This document shows positions 1 to 9,775 of a stretch of DNA of 9,775 nucleotides, in pieces. The notes under the pieces are model-generated. The model was given only the letters and a program-made list of their open reading frames with translations, was not told where the DNA came from and did no database searches. Position numbers and translations under genes: made by a program. Each line of letters starts with the position of its first letter. The first letter of the stretch is position 1. Origin of the DNA: Chthoniobacterales bacterium (lineage in GTDB: Bacteria > Verrucomicrobiota > Verrucomicrobiae > Chthoniobacterales > UBA10450); NCBI GenBank assembly GCA_003244125.1, contig QHBL01000288.1, positions 1 through 9,775 on the forward strand, in the 5' to 3' direction.

Positions 1-1615
1 TGCCGAGCGTCATGCGGCCTTCGGTTTTCCAGCCGTCGTTCAAACGCTTGAGCTCCTTCCGCATCCCTACCGCCGTGCGCGCGCACGCTTTCGCGTCGCT
101 GGCCAGGCCCTGGCTCTTCACATTTCCCCACACCGCCATGATGGCGTCGCCGATAAATTTATCGAGCGTGCCTTCATTTTGAAAAACGACCACCGTCATC
201 GCGCTCAAGTATTCGTTGAGCTGGCGCACCAACTCTTCCGGATCGGCGTGCTCGCTCAAAGTGGTGAAGCCGACGAGATCAGAGAACAGCATCGTCGCCG
301 GCATGCGCGTGCCTTTGAGTGAATTGTAATAACCGCGCGGGTTCTCGAGAATTTCCTTCACCAAATTTTTCGAGACGTAACGCTCGAGCGTTCGGCGAGT
401 GCGCAATTTTTCCATTCGCTCAAGGGCGTAATCGATGCCGATTGTGCTGGCGCCGCTGAGCAGGAACGTGGCTAAAACCGGCACGGTCGCGAGAAACAAG
501 CCGGAATGATTATAGGCCGCGTAGGCAGTGAAAGCGTATCCGACACAGATCGCGGCGACAAGCCCGAGCGAAATAAGCGGACGACGCAGCAAGGTCACAA
601 TCGCCCAAGCGAGCGCCGCTCCAATAATGATGAGACCAAAAACAAAACGCGGTCGCAAACCGTGCAGCCACTCCTTTGCCTGCGCAGCCGCGATCACCTC
701 GAGATGAATGACCGGACCCGGCGTATCAGGATTCATTGGGGTGTTGGCGAAGTCGTGCTGAATCTGCGAGGAAGCGCCGACGACGATGATCTTGTTTTTG
801 AAAATCTCGCCGTCGTGATAATTGGCGTGCCAGAATTTCGGATCAAAGACCTGGTAAAGCGGAATCGGCTGATAGGTCTCGTTAGCAGTGAAACGAAATG
901 GATGATCGCGCTCGTCGCGAATTACAGCGTTGCCGTCGCCAAGTTTCAATAATGCCCGCGTTGCTAACGAACGATATACTTTCGCGCTCGGATGCGGCGG
1001 CAAACCTGCCAGCATTCGATCGGTCACATAAAACCTCGCCGTGCGAAGGGTGCCGTCCAGATCGGGAAAGTAATTGACGTAACCGACACGATCATCGTCT
1101 TCTGCCGGCGGCGGAATTAAGTCCTGGTTAGGAACGACAAGTTGGTAACTATTTTGTGAGTCAAAGTTCTCTCCAAGAACAACGCGATCGCGATAATGAT
1201 CGAGCGCGTCGTGAAAATTCGCGTCACCGTCGTATGGCTTGTTGAAAATCATATCGAACATCACCAGCCGCGCGCCCGCGCCGCAAAGCCGCTCGAGTAG
1301 AAGTGCCCACAGTTCTCGCGACCACGGATATGGTCGTTCAGTCATGAGTTGAAACGCGCGATTATTCGCCAGTTCCTCGGGCGAAAGCGGCGGCATTTCC
1401 AACGAGCTTTGGTCAATCCCGATAAAAAGCATGTCGTCACGCGCGGCAGTTGTCCGACCGATGTTGCGCAGCAAATCCTCGAAAGCCTGTTCCCCATGCC
1501 ACGGCAAAGCGAGGAAAGGAATGGCTGGATAAAAATATCCCGAGAGAACGATCCAGACCCAGACCGCGCAAATGGCCGCGAACGCGACGCGACGGTGACG
1601 AGCGAGCCATTGCAC
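1..1615 (-). CDS. CHASE2-domain class III adenylate/guanylate cyclase, 3' end beyond window
   Basis: Membrane sensor that would make cyclic nucleotide (cAMP, less likely cGMP) from the triphosphate in response to a signal at an extracytoplasmic CHASE2 domain. The 538 visible codons show, in order: an N-terminal hydrophobic anchor (about residues 9-27); a CHASE2 region (about 60-310) with DDMLFIGID near its start and FKNKIIVVGA near its end; three hydrophobic helices (about 310-400); then the start of the cyclase domain. FSDLVGF carries metal-binding D446 and DKFIGDAIMAVWG carries K486 and metal-binding D490. The remaining substrate and transition-state residues lie past the left edge, so activity and base specificity cannot be judged. 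Start: an in-frame TAA at 1625-1627 leaves GTG 1615 as the first good start, just ahead of the hydrophobic anchor. There is no Shine-Dalgarno. The reading frame is unbroken. The domain call is firm; the ligand is unknown. Confidence 0.9.
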   Translation of the reverse strand, partial: MQWLARHRRVAFAAICAVWVWIVLSGYFYPAIPFLALPWHGEQAFEDLLRNIGRTTAARDDMLFIGIDQSSLEMPPLSPEELANNRAFQLMTERPYPWSRELWALLLERLCGAGARLVMFDMIFNKPYDGDANFHDALDHYRDRVVLGENFDSQNSYQLVVPNQDLIPPPAEDDDRVGYVNYFPDLDGTLRTARFYVTDRMLAGLPPHPSAKVYRSLATRALLKLGDGNAVIRDERDHPFRFTANETYQPIPLYQVFDPKFWHANYHDGEIFKNKIIVVGASSQIQHDFANTPMNPDTPGPVIHLEVIAAAQAKEWLHGLRPRFVFGLIIIGAALAWAIVTLLRRPLISLGLVAAICVGYAFTAYAAYNHSGLFLATVPVLATFLLSGASTIGIDYALERMEKLRTRRTLERYVSKNLVKEILENPRGYYNSLKGTRMPATMLFSDLVGFTTLSEHADPEELVRQLNEYLSAMTVVVFQNEGTLDKFIGDAIMAVWGNVKSQGLASDAKACARTAVGMRKELKRLNDGWKTEGRMTLG

Positions 1616-5936: not shown

Positions 5937-6747
5937 CGAAGAAGTTTATTGCATAGAGCAGCTCCGCAGTTGGTCGGACGAAAGCAGCATCCGTCTCGGG
6001 GTGATTGGCCATCCGATCGAACATTCGCTCTCGCCGCCAATGATGAATGCGGCCCTGCGAGAGTGCGGCCTCTGGCACGGCTATGCGCGCTTTTTGATTC
6101 GCCCGGGCGAGTTGCGCGAAGCGCTCGGCTTGATGCGCGAACATGAGTTCGTCGGCGTCAATGTCACGGCGCCTCACAAAATGGAAGCGCTCGCGGCGAT
6201 GGATTACGTGGATGAAAGCGCGGCAGCAATCGGTGCGGTCAATACGGTGCAATTCCGGCATGGTAAGTTGCGCGGCTGGAATACAGACGCCGTCGGTTTT
6301 TCGAAAGCTGTGCGCGAGGAATTTGGTATCGATGTGCGTGGATTGGACGCGCTGATCCTTGGCGCAGGTGGTGCGGCGCGCGCGATTGCCTTCGCCTGCG
6401 ACGCGCCGCACCTGTGGAATCGGCGGGAGCAGACAGTGGAGCAATTGCGCGAGCGAGTTCTCACAGCGGATCTCATCGTGAACGCGACGCCCGTTGGCTT
6501 GAACGAGGGCGACGCGCCGTTACTCACGCGCGCTCATTTTCGCCGCGACCAATTCGTGCTCGACACGATTTACGCGCCGGCCCGAACAAAGCTGCTGGAG
6601 GAAGCAGCCGCTGCCGGCGCGCGCGCGGCAAATGGATTATCGATGCTGCTGCACCAGGGCGCCGCTGCCTTCGAGCTTTGGTTCAACCGGCCGGCCCCGC
6701 TTGAAATCATGCGTGCGGCTTTCCGAACGCTGCCCGGTGCTCGTTAG
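5932..6747 (+). CDS. aroE: Shikimate dehydrogenase (NADP-dependent), with a compact cofactor domain
   Basis: Reduces 3-dehydroshikimate to shikimate with NADPH in the pathway to aromatic amino acids. With GTG 5932 as start it has 271 residues. The shikimate-binding half is complete: HSLSPPM (31-37), NVTAPHK with catalytic K83, GAVNTV, and NTD with catalytic D119. The Rossmann half has GAGGAAR (144-150), NATPVGL (184-190) and the C-terminal GLSMLLHQGAAAFELW with Q242. The distance from GAGG to NAT is only 40 residues, against about 60 in E. coli AroE. The strand-helix unit that holds the NRT/S cofactor motif is shortened to LWNRREQ. Start is uncertain: ATG 5881 is also in frame, but its added 17 residues come from the palindromic repeat. 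Divergent from glnS; its stop overlaps that of the next gene by 4 bases. Confidence 0.9.
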   Translation: MAEEVYCIEQLRSWSDESSIRLGVIGHPIEHSLSPPMMNAALRECGLWHGYARFLIRPGELREALGLMREHEFVGVNVTAPHKMEALAAMDYVDESAAAIGAVNTVQFRHGKLRGWNTDAVGFSKAVREEFGIDVRGLDALILGAGGAARAIAFACDAPHLWNRREQTVEQLRERVLTADLIVNATPVGLNEGDAPLLTRAHFRRDQFVLDTIYAPARTKLLEEAAAAGARAANGLSMLLHQGAAAFELWFNRPAPLEIMRAAFRTLPGAR

Positions 6748-7376
6748 CTCAGCGCCGGCAGCCGGTTCCCGTTCGCATGCCCATCTTTCGCGGGGGCTGG
6801 GGCGAGATGCTCGGCTGTTTGCGCCAGTGTGTCCGCAGTCGCCGCCGCTTTCAACGGCGGCACCGGCACCGTGAACACGATGGGATCGCTCGGCACGCCT
6901 TGCATGTTGCCGCTCACTGCCTGCACGATGATTTGCACGGTCTGACCCGGCAGCACTTTGTTCACGATCGAAGCCATCGGCTCCGTCGAGCTGGCCACCA
7001 GGGCGTAATCAGTCTGCACACCCAGGATCATCATGCGGAAGCGATAACGCCACGCATTTGGCACCAGATCGCACTGTACCATGATCGCGTTGTACGGACC
7101 GATGTGAGCCGTCACATTCACCGGCTGCGCGGGCGTAGTGATCGTGGCCGGAATCTGGAGCCCGAAAGCCAGCCAGCGCGTGTCATCATTATTCAGCTTG
7201 GCCTCCAGGTTTTTGAGCAAATCGGTCATCGTCGCGATCAGCGTTTCGTACGCTGTCGTCCAGGCATTGCCGACTTGCTTCTGCGTCGCCTCAGCCGAGC
7301 TCAAAGCATTCTGCGCGTTTTGAGTGGCGGTGACCAGAGCTGCGCCGGCGGCCGCGGTCAGCCCCATTGAAGGCAC
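6744..7376 (-). CDS. Hypothetical protein, C-terminal part of a frameshifted gene (fibronectin III-like tail)
   Basis: No function known to me. As a separate ORF it would start at GTG 7376 (or ATG 7367) with no Shine-Dalgarno, and have up to 210 residues. The first 60 or so are alanine/glutamine-rich and helical. The rest alternates short beta-like stretches (TTPAQPVNVTAH, YRFRMMILGV, QTVQIIVQAVSG), resembling a fibronectin type III module, and ends in a loose Pro/Ala tail. There is no signal peptide. It is best read as the second half of one protein with the ORF at 7358-7795. One extra T in the five-T run at 7399-7403 (minus strand) joins them as ...VDFFTKNPSYEVPSMGL... and restores about 350 residues. 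I recall similar single-chain proteins in Verrucomicrobia, but cannot check. Its TAA overlaps the aroE TAG in convergent order. Confidence 0.65.
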   Translation of the reverse strand: MPSMGLTAAAGAALVTATQNAQNALSSAEATQKQVGNAWTTAYETLIATMTDLLKNLEAKLNNDDTRWLAFGLQIPATITTPAQPVNVTAHIGPYNAIMVQCDLVPNAWRYRFRMMILGVQTDYALVASSTEPMASIVNKVLPGQTVQIIVQAVSGNMQGVPSDPIVFTVPVPPLKAAATADTLAQTAEHLAPAPAKDGHANGNRLPALS

Positions 7377-7795
7377 CTCGTAGCTCGGATTCTTGGTGAA
7401 AAATCGACCAAACGCTGCGCCAGGGTGACGCGACTAGCGATCCTGGTCGGAATCCCGGTGGTGTTGTTGATGAATCCAGCCTGCGCCCATTGCGTATTCC
7501 ACCGCGTGCCGAACCGGTTAGCCAGCATATTGCTCACATTGAGCAGCCAGGTATAAAGCAGATCCAGCGTAGCCTGGTAAGTATCCGAAGCGGTCTGGAG
7601 CGTGCTGCGGCCGGCGTTGAAATTGTTGTCTGCGACGAGGAACGCCTGCGTATCATCGTGCATCTTTTTGGCGGTCGTCATCGTCATCGTCATCGTCACC
7701 GGCACCGAGGCACCGACAGCGTTGATACCGTTTTCCATTTTGCCGCCGAGCTGGATAAGGAGGCCGGGATTTTGCGGAAGAGAAGTCGAAGCCAT
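7358..7795 (-). CDS. Hypothetical protein, N-terminal part of a frameshifted gene
   Basis: First half of the broken gene described at 6744-7376. From ATG 7795 (MASTSLPQNPGLLIQLGGKM) it reads through mostly helical sequence with conserved-looking aromatic blocks (LYTWLLNVSNMLANRFGTRW, then TQWAQAGFINNTTGIPTRI). At VDF the frame is lost: the last 13 residues (SPRIRATRCLQWG) are out-of-frame sequence, ended by TGA at 7358-7360. The frame is open upstream to 7903, but the added 36 residues look non-native, so 7795 is preferred. There is no clear Shine-Dalgarno. A Met-Thr run comes from a 6-base microsatellite. Function unknown; no signal peptide or membrane helix is seen. Confidence 0.6.
   Translation of the reverse strand: MASTSLPQNPGLLIQLGGKMENGINAVGASVPVTMTMTMTTAKKMHDDTQAFLVADNNFNAGRSTLQTASDTYQATLDLLYTWLLNVSNMLANRFGTRWNTQWAQAGFINNTTGIPTRIASRVTLAQRLVDFSPRIRATRCLQWG
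7675..7698. repeat. Four tandem TCGTCA hexamers inside the hypothetical gene
   Basis: Four exact copies of TCGTCA in a row. On the coding (minus) strand they encode a Thr-Met run (VTMTMTMTT). The 6-base unit means copy-number slippage would change protein length without losing frame. Confidence 0.8.
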
Positions 7796-8159
7796 GGAGA
7801 AGTTCTGTTTTGTGAAGGCGAGCTTCGGGGGAAAGCCGGCCACGTTTACTTGATCTGTCGGCGCTACGCTACGGTTGCGCAGGCCAGAGACTGATTTGAG
7901 CACACGAGTGCCACCTTCGGCCTGGCTGGCAAATTATCTATAATCTGGCAAAGAATTCTAATTCCTGACCTCGTTGGAAAAAATCAGGCCAAAAATTCCA
8001 AATTCTCCGGCAGTCCAAATCTCAACTGTGTGAGAATTGTGAATTCTTGGCCGGTTGAGATTCTAACCACGCAGGATTTGTGAATTGTTCGGCGTCTAAA
8101 GTTTCAACCGGCTCCCAATTGTGCATTGCTAGACGGATTACGCGCCAACAGCTTCGGAA
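7796..8159. other. Gene-free stretch between the hypothetical gene and intI
   Basis: No gene is seen in these 364 bases. The part from about 7930 to 8130 is visibly richer in A and T than its surroundings and is full of related inverted words around AATT and GTTGA. A weak minus-strand promoter for the hypothetical gene could be TTAGAA (7956-7961), 17 bases, GATAAT (7933-7938). GCCGGTTGA (8050-8058) is the exact inverse of TCAACCGGC (8104-8112) and competes with the nested palindrome listed separately. It may be the remains of a decayed element or a transcript-end region of intI. Confidence 0.5.
8018..8062. repeat. Nested, exactly centred palindrome downstream of intI
   Basis: Outer arms AATCTCAAC (8018-8026) and GTTGAGATT (8054-8062) are perfect inverses. 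Inside, AGAATT (8033-8038) and AATTCT (8042-8047) form a second perfect inverse around GTG. Both share the centre 8040, with 6 unpaired bases on each side between them. The symmetry suggests a folded or protein-bound site. The outer ends AAC...GTT recall an attC, but the 7-base core consensus is not met. Confidence 0.5.
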
Positions 8160-9260
8160 TTATCCATTCCGAGCCTGTCGCGTCTCATCTAATGGGCTAA
8201 GGACCCCGACGCCAGGTTTGTTTAATACATGGGTGTAGATCATCGTCGTGCTCACATCCTTATGGCCGAGTAGCTCCTGCACCGTCCTGATATCATACCC
8301 ATTCTCAAGCAGGTGTGTCGCAAACGAGTGCCGAAGAGTGTGACAACTGGCCGGCTTGTCGATTCCCGCGTCGCGCACCGCTGCTTTCACCGCCACTTGC
8401 AGTGTGTTTTCGTCGATGTGATGCCGCCGCAAATTCGGCGGGCTGTAGGGGAAGCTGTTAGCTTCCCGCCCCGGCCCACGAACGAAGCTGCCGGCCTCCC
8501 CCTCCTTTCTCGCTCTCCCAATCGCGCGCGGATCTCGCGCCAGCCGCGAAGACGGAAACACCCATTGCCACGGCCATGACCTCGCGGCGTCTGGATACTT
8601 ACGCGAGAGCGCGTACGGCAGATGCACCTCCCCCAGCCCATCAGCAAGATCCTCCTCATGCTGCGCCTTCACCTTTACCAAATGCCTGTGCAGCGCCTCG
8701 GCCAGGTTCAGGGGCAACATCGTCACCCGGTCCTTGGCCCCTTTACCATCCCGCACGGTTATCCGACCATAGCCAAAATCTAAATCTTTGATTCTTAAGC
8801 GCAGACATTCCATCAAGCGCAACCCACTGCCATAAAGCAGGCCCGCCATCAGTCGATTTGTGCCGTGCAGGTGCTCCAGCAGCCGGTGAACCTCATCTCC
8901 CGTGAGCACCACCGGCACCCTGGCCGGGCGTCTGGCCCGCTCCACTCTTTCCAACCAGCCGATTTCCTGCCTGAGCACCTGTTTGTAAAGAAAAAGCAGC
9001 GCCGCAAGAGCCTGGTTTTGCGTGGAGGCTGCCACTTTGGCGTCCCGCGCCAGGTGCGTCAGGAACTCGCCCACCTCCAGTTCAGTCATTTCGCGCGGAT
9101 GCCGCAGCCGGTGAAACCGGATAAACCGCTCAATCCAGTCGCAATACGCCCGCTCTGTCCTAAGACTGTAATGCTTCAGCCGAAGAACGTCGCGCACCTG
9201 CTCCATGAGCTTCCGAGGCTTGTTAACAGCAGGCGTTTCCGATACAATCAGCGCAGTCAT
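8160..9260 (-). CDS. intI: Integron integrase IntI, with in-frame insertion
   Basis: Site-specific tyrosine recombinase that inserts and excises gene cassettes by recombining attI with folded attC sites. The 366 residues include the N-terminal core-binding domain (about 15-110: [31 protein letters not shown]). The catalytic domain has R148 in [13 protein letters not shown], a lysine in DGKGAKDR (173 or 176), H307 and R310 in [11 protein letters not shown]333 in LLGHKDVS and nucleophile Y342. The extra motif that separates IntI from XerC/D is present at about 205-235 ([20 protein letters not shown]). Residues of roughly 246-274 are an insertion not expected in IntI, between [12 protein letters not shown] and PNLRRHH. 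The frame is open throughout, so the enzyme could be made; whether it is active is uncertain. ATG 9260 gives the usual N-terminus. attI and a cassette lie directly upstream in the opposite direction, the standard integron layout. Confidence 0.95.
8439..8525 (-). repeat. In-frame palindromic repeat-like insertion within intI
   Basis: This segment encodes about 29 residues ([20 protein letters not shown] and on to NSFPYSP) absent from the IntI proteins I know, which pass from FPSSRL-DPR directly to RRHH. It contains a perfect 8-bp inverted repeat, GGGAAGCT/AGCTTCCC around GTT at 8449-8467, plus a G/C-run-rich flank (8470-8515) with a further AGC-TTC word. The length keeps the reading frame. It resembles the palindromic elements that insert in frame into genes in Rickettsia; the exact ends are estimated from the protein, not from a target duplication. 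Confidence 0.6.
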
Positions 9261-9301
9261 GCACTATTTCTACGGGCGGCAGCTTGGCAAGCAACCGCGT
9301 T

Positions 9302-9320
9302 ATACAGAAAAATTCTGTAT
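9302..9320. promoter_or_regulatory. Palindromic operator candidate over the intI promoter
   Basis: ATACAGAA and TTCTGTAT are perfect 8-base inverses around AAA. On the minus strand TATAAC (9299-9304) would serve as an intI -10 about 39 bases before the ATG, so the palindrome falls mostly in the promoter spacer. intI is often controlled by LexA in other bacteria; this site has the half-sites in the opposite order to the E. coli box (ACAG...CTGT instead of CTGT...ACAG). The regulator is unknown. Confidence 0.45.
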
Positions 9321-9349
9321 TTGATTGCAGACTTTTTAGGCACAATACT
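9321..9349 (+). promoter_or_regulatory. Possible cassette promoter (Pc-like) in attI
   Basis: TTGATT (9321-9326), 17 bases, AATACT (9344-9349), each 4 of 6 to the consensus and pointing into the cassette. Integrons usually drive cassettes from a promoter in attI or intI. The match is modest. Confidence 0.3.
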
Positions 9350-9351
9350 CG

Positions 9352-9757
9352 TTAGGTGTGTGTGTCTTTGCGCTTCGATTCCGTCGTGGGTCATGCCGGC
9401 GGGCCACATCAGCCGTAGCTTGGACGGGAGCCTCTGCGAGCGGAGGGAGCGTGAGTTGCTGCCCGGTCCGGCTGAGGACACGAAGCGGCACACCGACCTC
9501 CCGTGCGAAGGCATTTTGCGCCACACGCTGCTTTTTCGTCGCGCTTTTTCCGGAGTTCTGGTTCGATGCGCAGGAGTGGCGACGCGTCAGGTGGTTCGGG
9601 ATTTTGTTGGGTTCACGTCCAGCGTGCTGCCACGCGCCACACCTAACCAGACGATGCAGCTGACGGCTACCCGCTCCGCGTTCACCTTTCCCATGGCTAC
9701 AACATCTCCACTCCGATTCCTGCGCGCCCTCGGTAGCCGCAGCTGATCTTGTTCTCG
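9352..9757 (+). mobile_element. First integron gene cassette, complete (406 bases)
   Basis: Bounded by two identical GTTAGGT cores (9351-9357 and 9757-9763), cut after the G. The cassette therefore runs from 9352 to 9757 and ends with its own attC. It is inserted at attI in the first, most expressed, position. It encodes no protein I recognise: two overlapping plus-strand frames (about 9358-9663 and 9393-9746) both end in a TGA within the L boxes of the attC, and a minus-strand frame also spans part of it. It could carry a novel small protein, a non-coding RNA or only a regulatory sequence. Confidence 0.85.
9393..9746 (+). CDS. Possible cassette-encoded hypothetical protein
   Basis: From ATG 9393 this frame gives 117 residues, starting MPAGHISRSLDGSLCERRER and ending inside the attC (TGA 9744-9746). 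Its last 35 or so residues (from NQTMQLTATRSAFTF) are simply the attC read as protein. A competing frame from GTG 9358 to 9663 gives 101 Cys/Arg-rich residues. Neither shows a known domain, a clear Shine-Dalgarno or convincing protein-like composition, so this is offered only as the better-placed of the two. Confidence 0.25.
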   Translation: MPAGHISRSLDGSLCERRERELLPGPAEDTKRHTDLPCEGILRHTLLFRRAFSGVLVRCAGVATRQVVRDFVGFTSSVLPRATPNQTMQLTATRSAFTFPMATTSPLRFLRALGSRS

Positions 9758-9763
9758 TTAGGT
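9641..9763 (+). other. attC: attC site of the first cassette (123 bases)
   Basis: R'' ACCTAAC (9641-9647, fits RYYYAAC) is fully complementary to R' GTTAGGT (9757-9763). Inside, CAGCTG (9657-9662) pairs with CAGCTG (9740-9745), and CGGCTACC (9664-9671) pairs with GGTAGCCG (9732-9739). The single base A9663 is left out of the helix on the L'' side. This unpaired base is the hallmark by which IntI chooses the bottom strand. The unpaired spacers between R and L boxes are 9 and 11 bases, longer than the usual few. The variable terminal part is about 60 bases. Confidence 0.9.
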
Positions 9764-9775
9764 GGTTGTGTGCGC
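9758..9775 (+). mobile_element. Start of a second integron cassette, cut by the window edge
   Basis: Bases after the second cut site (TTAGGTGGTTGTGTGCGC) should be the first bases of the next cassette, or the chromosome if the array ends here. The opening differs from that of cassette 1 (TTAGGTGTGTGTGTCTTT) beyond the core. Nothing more can be said. Confidence 0.5.

Follow-up and report, generated by a model that had tools for sequence, protein, structure and literature searches.

The stretch of DNA analysed here, the window, is 9,775 nucleotides long and appears to be the whole of its contig, the right end of which lies 12 bases beyond an attC site. From left to right it carries an edge-cut cyclase gene, genes for a zinc-ribbon protein, ribosomal protein L20, PheS, GlnS and AroE, two minus-strand frames, intI on the minus strand, an attI site and a cassette with its attC (Table 1). 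The two frames between aroE and intI (210 and 181 codons; 6744-7903, minus strand) overlap and are perhaps a single frameshifted gene; no profile of Pfam or NCBIfam matches them. The preliminary description of this DNA read its right-hand part as the head of an integron with these parts in this order, a reading that the family of the integrase, the attI core and the fold of the attC bear out. To it the present analysis adds a REP-bearing insertion in IntI, repeated words in attI and a cassette that probably carries no gene.

Table 1. Features of the window and their positions
Feature	Position	Strand	Remarks
Gene with a CHASE2 domain and an adenylate/guanylate cyclase domain	5-1615	-	truncated by the contig edge
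intI, integron integrase, 366 codons	8160..9260	-	TIGR02249, tree, 2a3v
Loop of 32 residues between DPR and RRHH in IntI	8430..8525	-	28 residues beyond the commonest length in 119 relatives
GTAG-tagged REP GTAGGGGAAGCTGTTAGCTTCCC	8445..8467	+	in frame within intI; dispersed in relatives
attI palindrome P1	9302..9320		arm 1 9305-9309, arm 2 9313-9317
attI third arm	9327..9336		word 9328-9332; direct copy of arm 1, offset 23 bases
attI core (R box) GTTAGGT	9351..9357	+	CTCGTTAG conserved in relatives
Complete cassette, 406 bases	9351..9756	+	probably gene-less
attC, 123 bases	9641..9763	+	R and L stems; two unpaired bases six pairs apart (fold, by eye)
First 19 bases of the next unit	9757..9775	+	cut by the contig end

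The presence of the L20, PheS, GlnS and AroE genes on the same contig supports a chromosomal residence of the integron, as first proposed from this flank, and speaks against a plasmid integron. In a sample of 387 genomes of the phylum, 377 of them with a match, the PheS of the window is closest to those of G027 (78% identity), G016 (77%) and G004 (77%). Five more genomes of G004's order reach 65-69% and three further ones 55-59%, and genomes outside that order reach 61% at most. Since this order includes Udaeobacter (L001 = G001) and Chthoniobacter (L005 = G005), the host belongs to Chthoniobacterales, which narrows the earlier assignment to a probable verrucomicrobial genome.

The leftward frame of intI specifies a protein that matches the integron integrase model TIGR02249 with 462 bits (cut-off 265), and the 11 other NCBIfam models that it matches, Xer models among them, all stay below their own cut-offs. 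Its closest solved structure is 2a3v (IntI4; E 2.3e-86). R148, K173, H307, R310, H333 and Y342, which we take to be the catalytic set of this IntI and which the preliminary description had reported as complete, are invariant in an alignment of 49 rows. The predicted structure (mean pLDDT 61.5, pTM 0.43) was of little use. A grouping with Xer or phage recombinases, against which the assignment was to be checked, does not appear in a tree for which 57 of 106 collected rows were selected: the window, 10 Xer, the verrucomicrobial IntI and one in every four of the remaining IntI. A 100/100 branch splits off the 10 Xer rows, and the IntI of the window belongs to a starred set whose 13 rows are without exception verrucomicrobial and which is nested in a larger one of 24 rows, likewise starred and verrucomicrobial. 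The model scores and the tree together exclude a Xer or phage recombinase. Seven further verrucomicrobial IntI are placed elsewhere in the tree, so that there is more than one lineage of IntI in the order. IntI occurs above the cut-off in 44 of 117 genomes of the order.

The R boxes of the attC are complementary at all seven positions, as the preliminary description had it, but the single unpaired base that it gave to this 123-base site becomes two by eye. A structural score had been asked of the site, and folded as DNA its bottom strand reaches -26.4 kcal/mol (z -3.07), better than all 200 shuffles. The top strand (z -3.91) likewise surpasses 200 of 200 shuffles, and because it folds equally well the fold does not choose the strand. 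GTTAGGTG by itself has five matches at up to one mismatch against 2.6 expected, with as many in 26 of 200 shuffles; alone it is weak evidence, and the attC as a whole is the evidence. Five attC sites of relatives (two of L002 and one each of L004, L007 and L008) align to that of the window, and these six sites make up the model R1. R1 matches 37 times over 46 sources and 51 times over 13 longer stretches; the sites it was trained on, and places represented twice, are part of these counts. Outside the training set it finds attC sites upstream of intI and on the opposite strand, for instance at L092, L094, L083, L096 and L102. With up to 29 candidates scored per genome, at least 57 of 117 genomes of the order hold a match. 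An attC half-site pattern is found in 27 of the 117 (43 times in G098 and 37 times in G112), and the reversed pattern, run as a control on the same 117, has no match. Clusters of attC also occur in three assemblies where no IntI exceeds the cut-off (G016, G053 and G059, with at least 21, 29 and 27 R1 matches, respectively).

The GTTAGGT cores at 9351 and 9757 have 406 bases between their starts and so delimit the one complete cassette claimed at the outset; a single attC is visible in the window. From R box to R box, 9341-9775 aligns with L138 (G112:C84) at 311 of 426 positions (73%). The L138 unit has another attC before it and a HicA gene and a HicB-like gene after it; to judge from the alignment, a related cassette within this array would fit a past exchange. 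Gene-less cassettes are known (PMC8618304), and that of the window is probably non-coding. It holds no known RNA family at the gathering score and no terminator-like site, and a scan for a candidate cassette promoter Pc gave two plus-strand promoter-like sites (9/12). The window cassette and cassettes of L164, L126 and L138 make up a family of about 400-480 bases, probably gene-less, with a common block near CGCGCTTTTTCCAGAG. Besides the window cassette, a short block of this kind is present in three L164 cassettes and in one L126 cassette, both loci belonging to G112. Searched as an exact pattern modelled on the copies already known, it occurs in one of 213 genomes (G112), in five copies on three attC-carrying contigs; a widespread cassette element is rejected on this restriction to G112.

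The arrays of relatives give an idea of what might follow. That of L124 holds seven attC and that of L164 ten. Delimited by a regular expression, so that some of the longer ones may conceal a missed attC, 29 cassettes in five stretches of relatives have a median length of 566 bases. Seven of the relatives' cassette proteins, five of them compared over their first 150 residues only, correspond to HicA, a HicB-like protein, a methyltransferase, TonB_C, a glycosyltransferase-like protein, an oxidoreductase-like protein and one without a match. For 36 intI places of relatives, the ones obtained as loci and with G003 and G004 counted twice, a contig end within 1 kb was seen on the array side in 15 cases and on the other side in four (Wilcoxon p 0.0014). 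This excess is as expected of repetitive arrays, and the window, ending directly after its attC, fits the trend. We infer that the IntI is active and that the array continues past the contig end; the enzyme would cut out and insert cassettes via the usual attC bottom-strand route. The sequence itself shows the parts and their order, the lineage, the homologous attC sites and the related cassette in a relative's array. It is very likely that the locus is the head of a chromosomal integron of Chthoniobacterales, with a leftward intI, an attI and one 406-base cassette ending in a foldable attC.

The integrase has a conspicuous insertion, which maps between residues 233 and 237 of 2a3v. The span from W229 to the T of RRHHIDENT is 58 residues in the window; in 119 relatives, measured from alignment columns, it runs from 22 to 71, the commonest length being 30 (52 of the 119), with at least 42 residues in eight. 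Within the inserted stretch lies the only copy of GTAGGGGAAGCTGTTAGCTTCCC in the window, which bears the GTAG tag and forms the hairpin of GTAG REPs, and the dispersal typical of such elements is evident in the genomes of relatives. Among 13 genomes, the corresponding pattern (three free loop bases; perfect palindromes counted on both strands) has 77 matches in G005, 12 in G027, one each in G001, G003 and G006, and none in the other eight; the reversed pattern has none in the 13. On G027:C2 two copies in inverted orientation, both identical to the 23-mer of the window, enclose a gene for a REP-type transposase (83.5 bits, cut-off 80), so that a transposase with flanking copies is found in a relative, a genome other than that of the window. 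The sole match of G005 to this transposase family is below the cut-off (68.5), yet it too lies between REP copies. The closest IntI among 213 genomes of the order, that of L166 in G120 (74% identity), has a 25-residue insertion in the same loop, carrying a different palindromic repeat, with the frame otherwise open. A pattern shaped after this insertion has 59 matches, itself included, in eight of 13 genomes, against none when reversed; two matches are in G120, one of them inside intI. Perfect stems as long as those observed arise in three of 500 shuffles of the window insertion and in none of 500 of the L166 insertion, where the longest stem is a neighboring palindrome distinct from the REP pattern. 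The REP of the window is most likely a passenger that the enzyme tolerates as a larger loop, and the repeats within intI point to this loop as a place where additional peptides seem to be accepted. The loops of P0002 and P0009 appear to resemble the REP of the window in two frames; ACACGCGAGGGCGCGTGT, a palindrome guessed from protein loops, has five matches in four of 117 genomes and carries no weight as support.

The attI lies between intI and the first cassette, and its core is the GTTAGGT pointed out earlier. As in attI with DR-type accessory sites, a short sequence is repeated ahead of the L and R boxes: a 5-base word occurs at -46, at -23 and, inverted, at -38. By eye, the upstream regions of relatives follow the same plan, in which a palindrome comes first, then an AT-rich spacer, a third arm and finally CTCGTTAG. 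In all, 26 distinct attI were extracted, the remaining loci having no core or too little sequence; 20 of the 26 belong to the near clade, and the 15 of these with the common spacing entered a word test, which left out the six attI of other clades along with L003, L092, L096, L170 and L177 (other spacings or a lost unit). The layout tested had been spotted by eye in these same sequences. Across the 15 sites and all window pairs, the best inverted 5-base pair, -46/-38, matches at 0.84 within a site versus 0.55 between sites, and the best direct pairs at 0.80 versus 0.47 (-45/-22) and 0.87 versus 0.55 (-46/-23). In 1000 site permutations, which treat the 15 sites as unrelated, the maximum over all pairs reached the observed value once for the inverted pair and never for the direct pairs. 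Arm 1 takes 11 forms in the 15 sites, yet the copies match within each site, and arm 2 is complementary to its two neighbors at 4.20 and 4.33 of five bases within sites. In L168 and L202, which stood outside the word test, arms 1 and 3 are identical; arm 2 agrees with them in L168 and departs at two positions in L202. A fixed-spacing scan (at least 9 of 10 matches) recovers the layout in only 11 of 45 verrucomicrobial upstream regions and in two of 68 others, and ten of these 11, the window included, have arm 1 exactly 46 bases before the core. The form CACCT...AGGTG was seen by eye 47 bases before the core in L019, L033, L034 and L035, and a single palindrome in L198 and L199 of a second verrucomicrobial clade. 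Of the genomes with two integrons, G004 has a different word in each, G120 has one and the same arm 1 in both, and G007 and G066 show the single-palindrome layout in their second integron. The attI of L170 (G203:C19) seems to have lost one 23-base unit between two word copies. A conserved fixed operator is ruled out, as the palindrome of the window, ACAGAANNNTTCTGT, occurs in none of 116 loci, from which the word is seen to vary between sites.

The question then is what reads these words. A reader that travels with the site, that is the IntI itself, best explains their pattern across integrons, we infer, since the words vary between sites, match within sites and differ between the two integrons of G004. 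The words upstream of the core would then be accessory sites at which the cognate IntI binds, in the manner of DR1 and DR2 in the class 1 attI1, and as they sit in front of intI they may also let IntI damp its own expression. On the intI strand, a TATAAC adjoining P1 resembles a -10 box by eye; a promoter scan gave three other sites instead. The position of P1 in front of intI would also suit a host regulator such as LexA, for which sites are present in the intI promoter of Vibrio cholerae and of class 1 integrons, and intI is described as under LexA control (PMC3108266). However, the 11 words over 15 sites, the two words within the single genome G004 and the lack of ACAGAANNNTTCTGT from the 116 loci speak against such a regulator, and we regard LexA as a rather unlikely reader. 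Pairing of arm 2 with arm 1 or arm 3 could alternatively make the words hairpins in DNA or RNA, as the complementarity of arm 2 to both neighbors would allow; but with arms of only about five bases, a fixed spacing of 23 and an identity of arms 1 and 3 for which a hairpin has no use, this seems unlikely. With IntI as the preferred reader, we tentatively suggest a further possibility for this order, to which we give somewhat less than even weight: the three word copies of attI, two of them forming a palindrome, could be a self-labelled address read by the adjacent integrase, with integrase and word changing together, so that each integron would know its own site and damp its own integrase. If true, this would hold even with two integrons of different words in one cell.

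Two further alternatives concern the cassette and the enzyme. The cassette could encode a small protein, seeing that open frames exist on both of its strands and that L138 has similar ones. By codon position, the G+C content of the plus frame ending at 9746 (0.63/0.57/0.71) comes closest to the housekeeping pattern of pheS (0.66/0.44/0.64) and glnS (0.60/0.43/0.72); that of the minus frame 9336-9524 is 0.76/0.54/0.59. Against this, the gaps between the window and L138 cassettes are mostly short and not multiples of three, and the frame 9358-9660 has a codon-position G+C (0.54/0.70/0.64) unlike that of pheS and no protein relative at E 0.001 among six candidates. A coding cassette is therefore decidedly improbable in our view. 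The other alternative is that the integrase no longer works, the REP insertion marking a decaying integron and the cassette being inherited baggage. The 28 additional residues could impair the enzyme, the intI of several relatives has internal stops, and there are the attC clusters of G016, G053 and G059 without an above-cut-off IntI. The window, however, retains an open frame and the invariant catalytic residues, the length of this loop varies widely among relatives, and in one more genome the loop houses a different repeat within an otherwise open frame. Decay is thus an account to which we assign little probability, and an active IntI with an enlarged loop is preferred.

The locus is genuinely the head of a chromosomal integron, of a kind already known, and its attI is a variant. 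Verrucomicrobiota are listed among the phyla with integrons (PMC8618304). With the sedentary chromosomal integron of V. cholerae (IntIA/IntI4, 2a3v) it shares the integrase family, a divergent intI, an attI, a cassette with attC and the chromosomal place; the difference lies in the attI, which has matched words in the window, whereas attIA is without direct repeats according to PMC8191803. In the class 1 attI1, too, short repeats (DR1 and DR2) precede the L and R boxes; the copies of the window are unlike them in including an inverted one, in being 23 bases apart and in a word that changes between lineages. The direct repeats of attI1 are bound by IntI1 and favor the attI1 x attC reaction, and they are missing from most attI sites, according to PMC8191803 and PMC8946536. 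The open literature searched yielded no description of a verrucomicrobial attI or of such attI words, and as far as found this variant is undescribed, in an integron of known kind. Recognition of attI by integrases is poorly understood, and words that differ between integrons and are matched within a site offer ready natural experiments on it.

For the repeat in intI, the parallel is with GTAG REPs and REPtrons, which according to PMC3733652 likewise have a GTAG-tagged hairpin, are dispersed and feature a REP-type transposase between inverted copies. The same paper reports REPs from Verrucomicrobia and within genes, among them REPs at nearly the same place of recB in two species of Xanthomonas. 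The present case differs in that the REP is within an integron integrase and that a second repeat family occupies the same spot in another genome; searches of the open literature on verrucomicrobial integrons and intragenic REPs found no description of a REP in such an enzyme. Outside the phylum, the region upstream of intI in L060 (Pseudomonas mangrovi) has CACCAAATGGTG, 10 bases, CACCATTTGGTG and then a GTTA core, a similar double palindrome.
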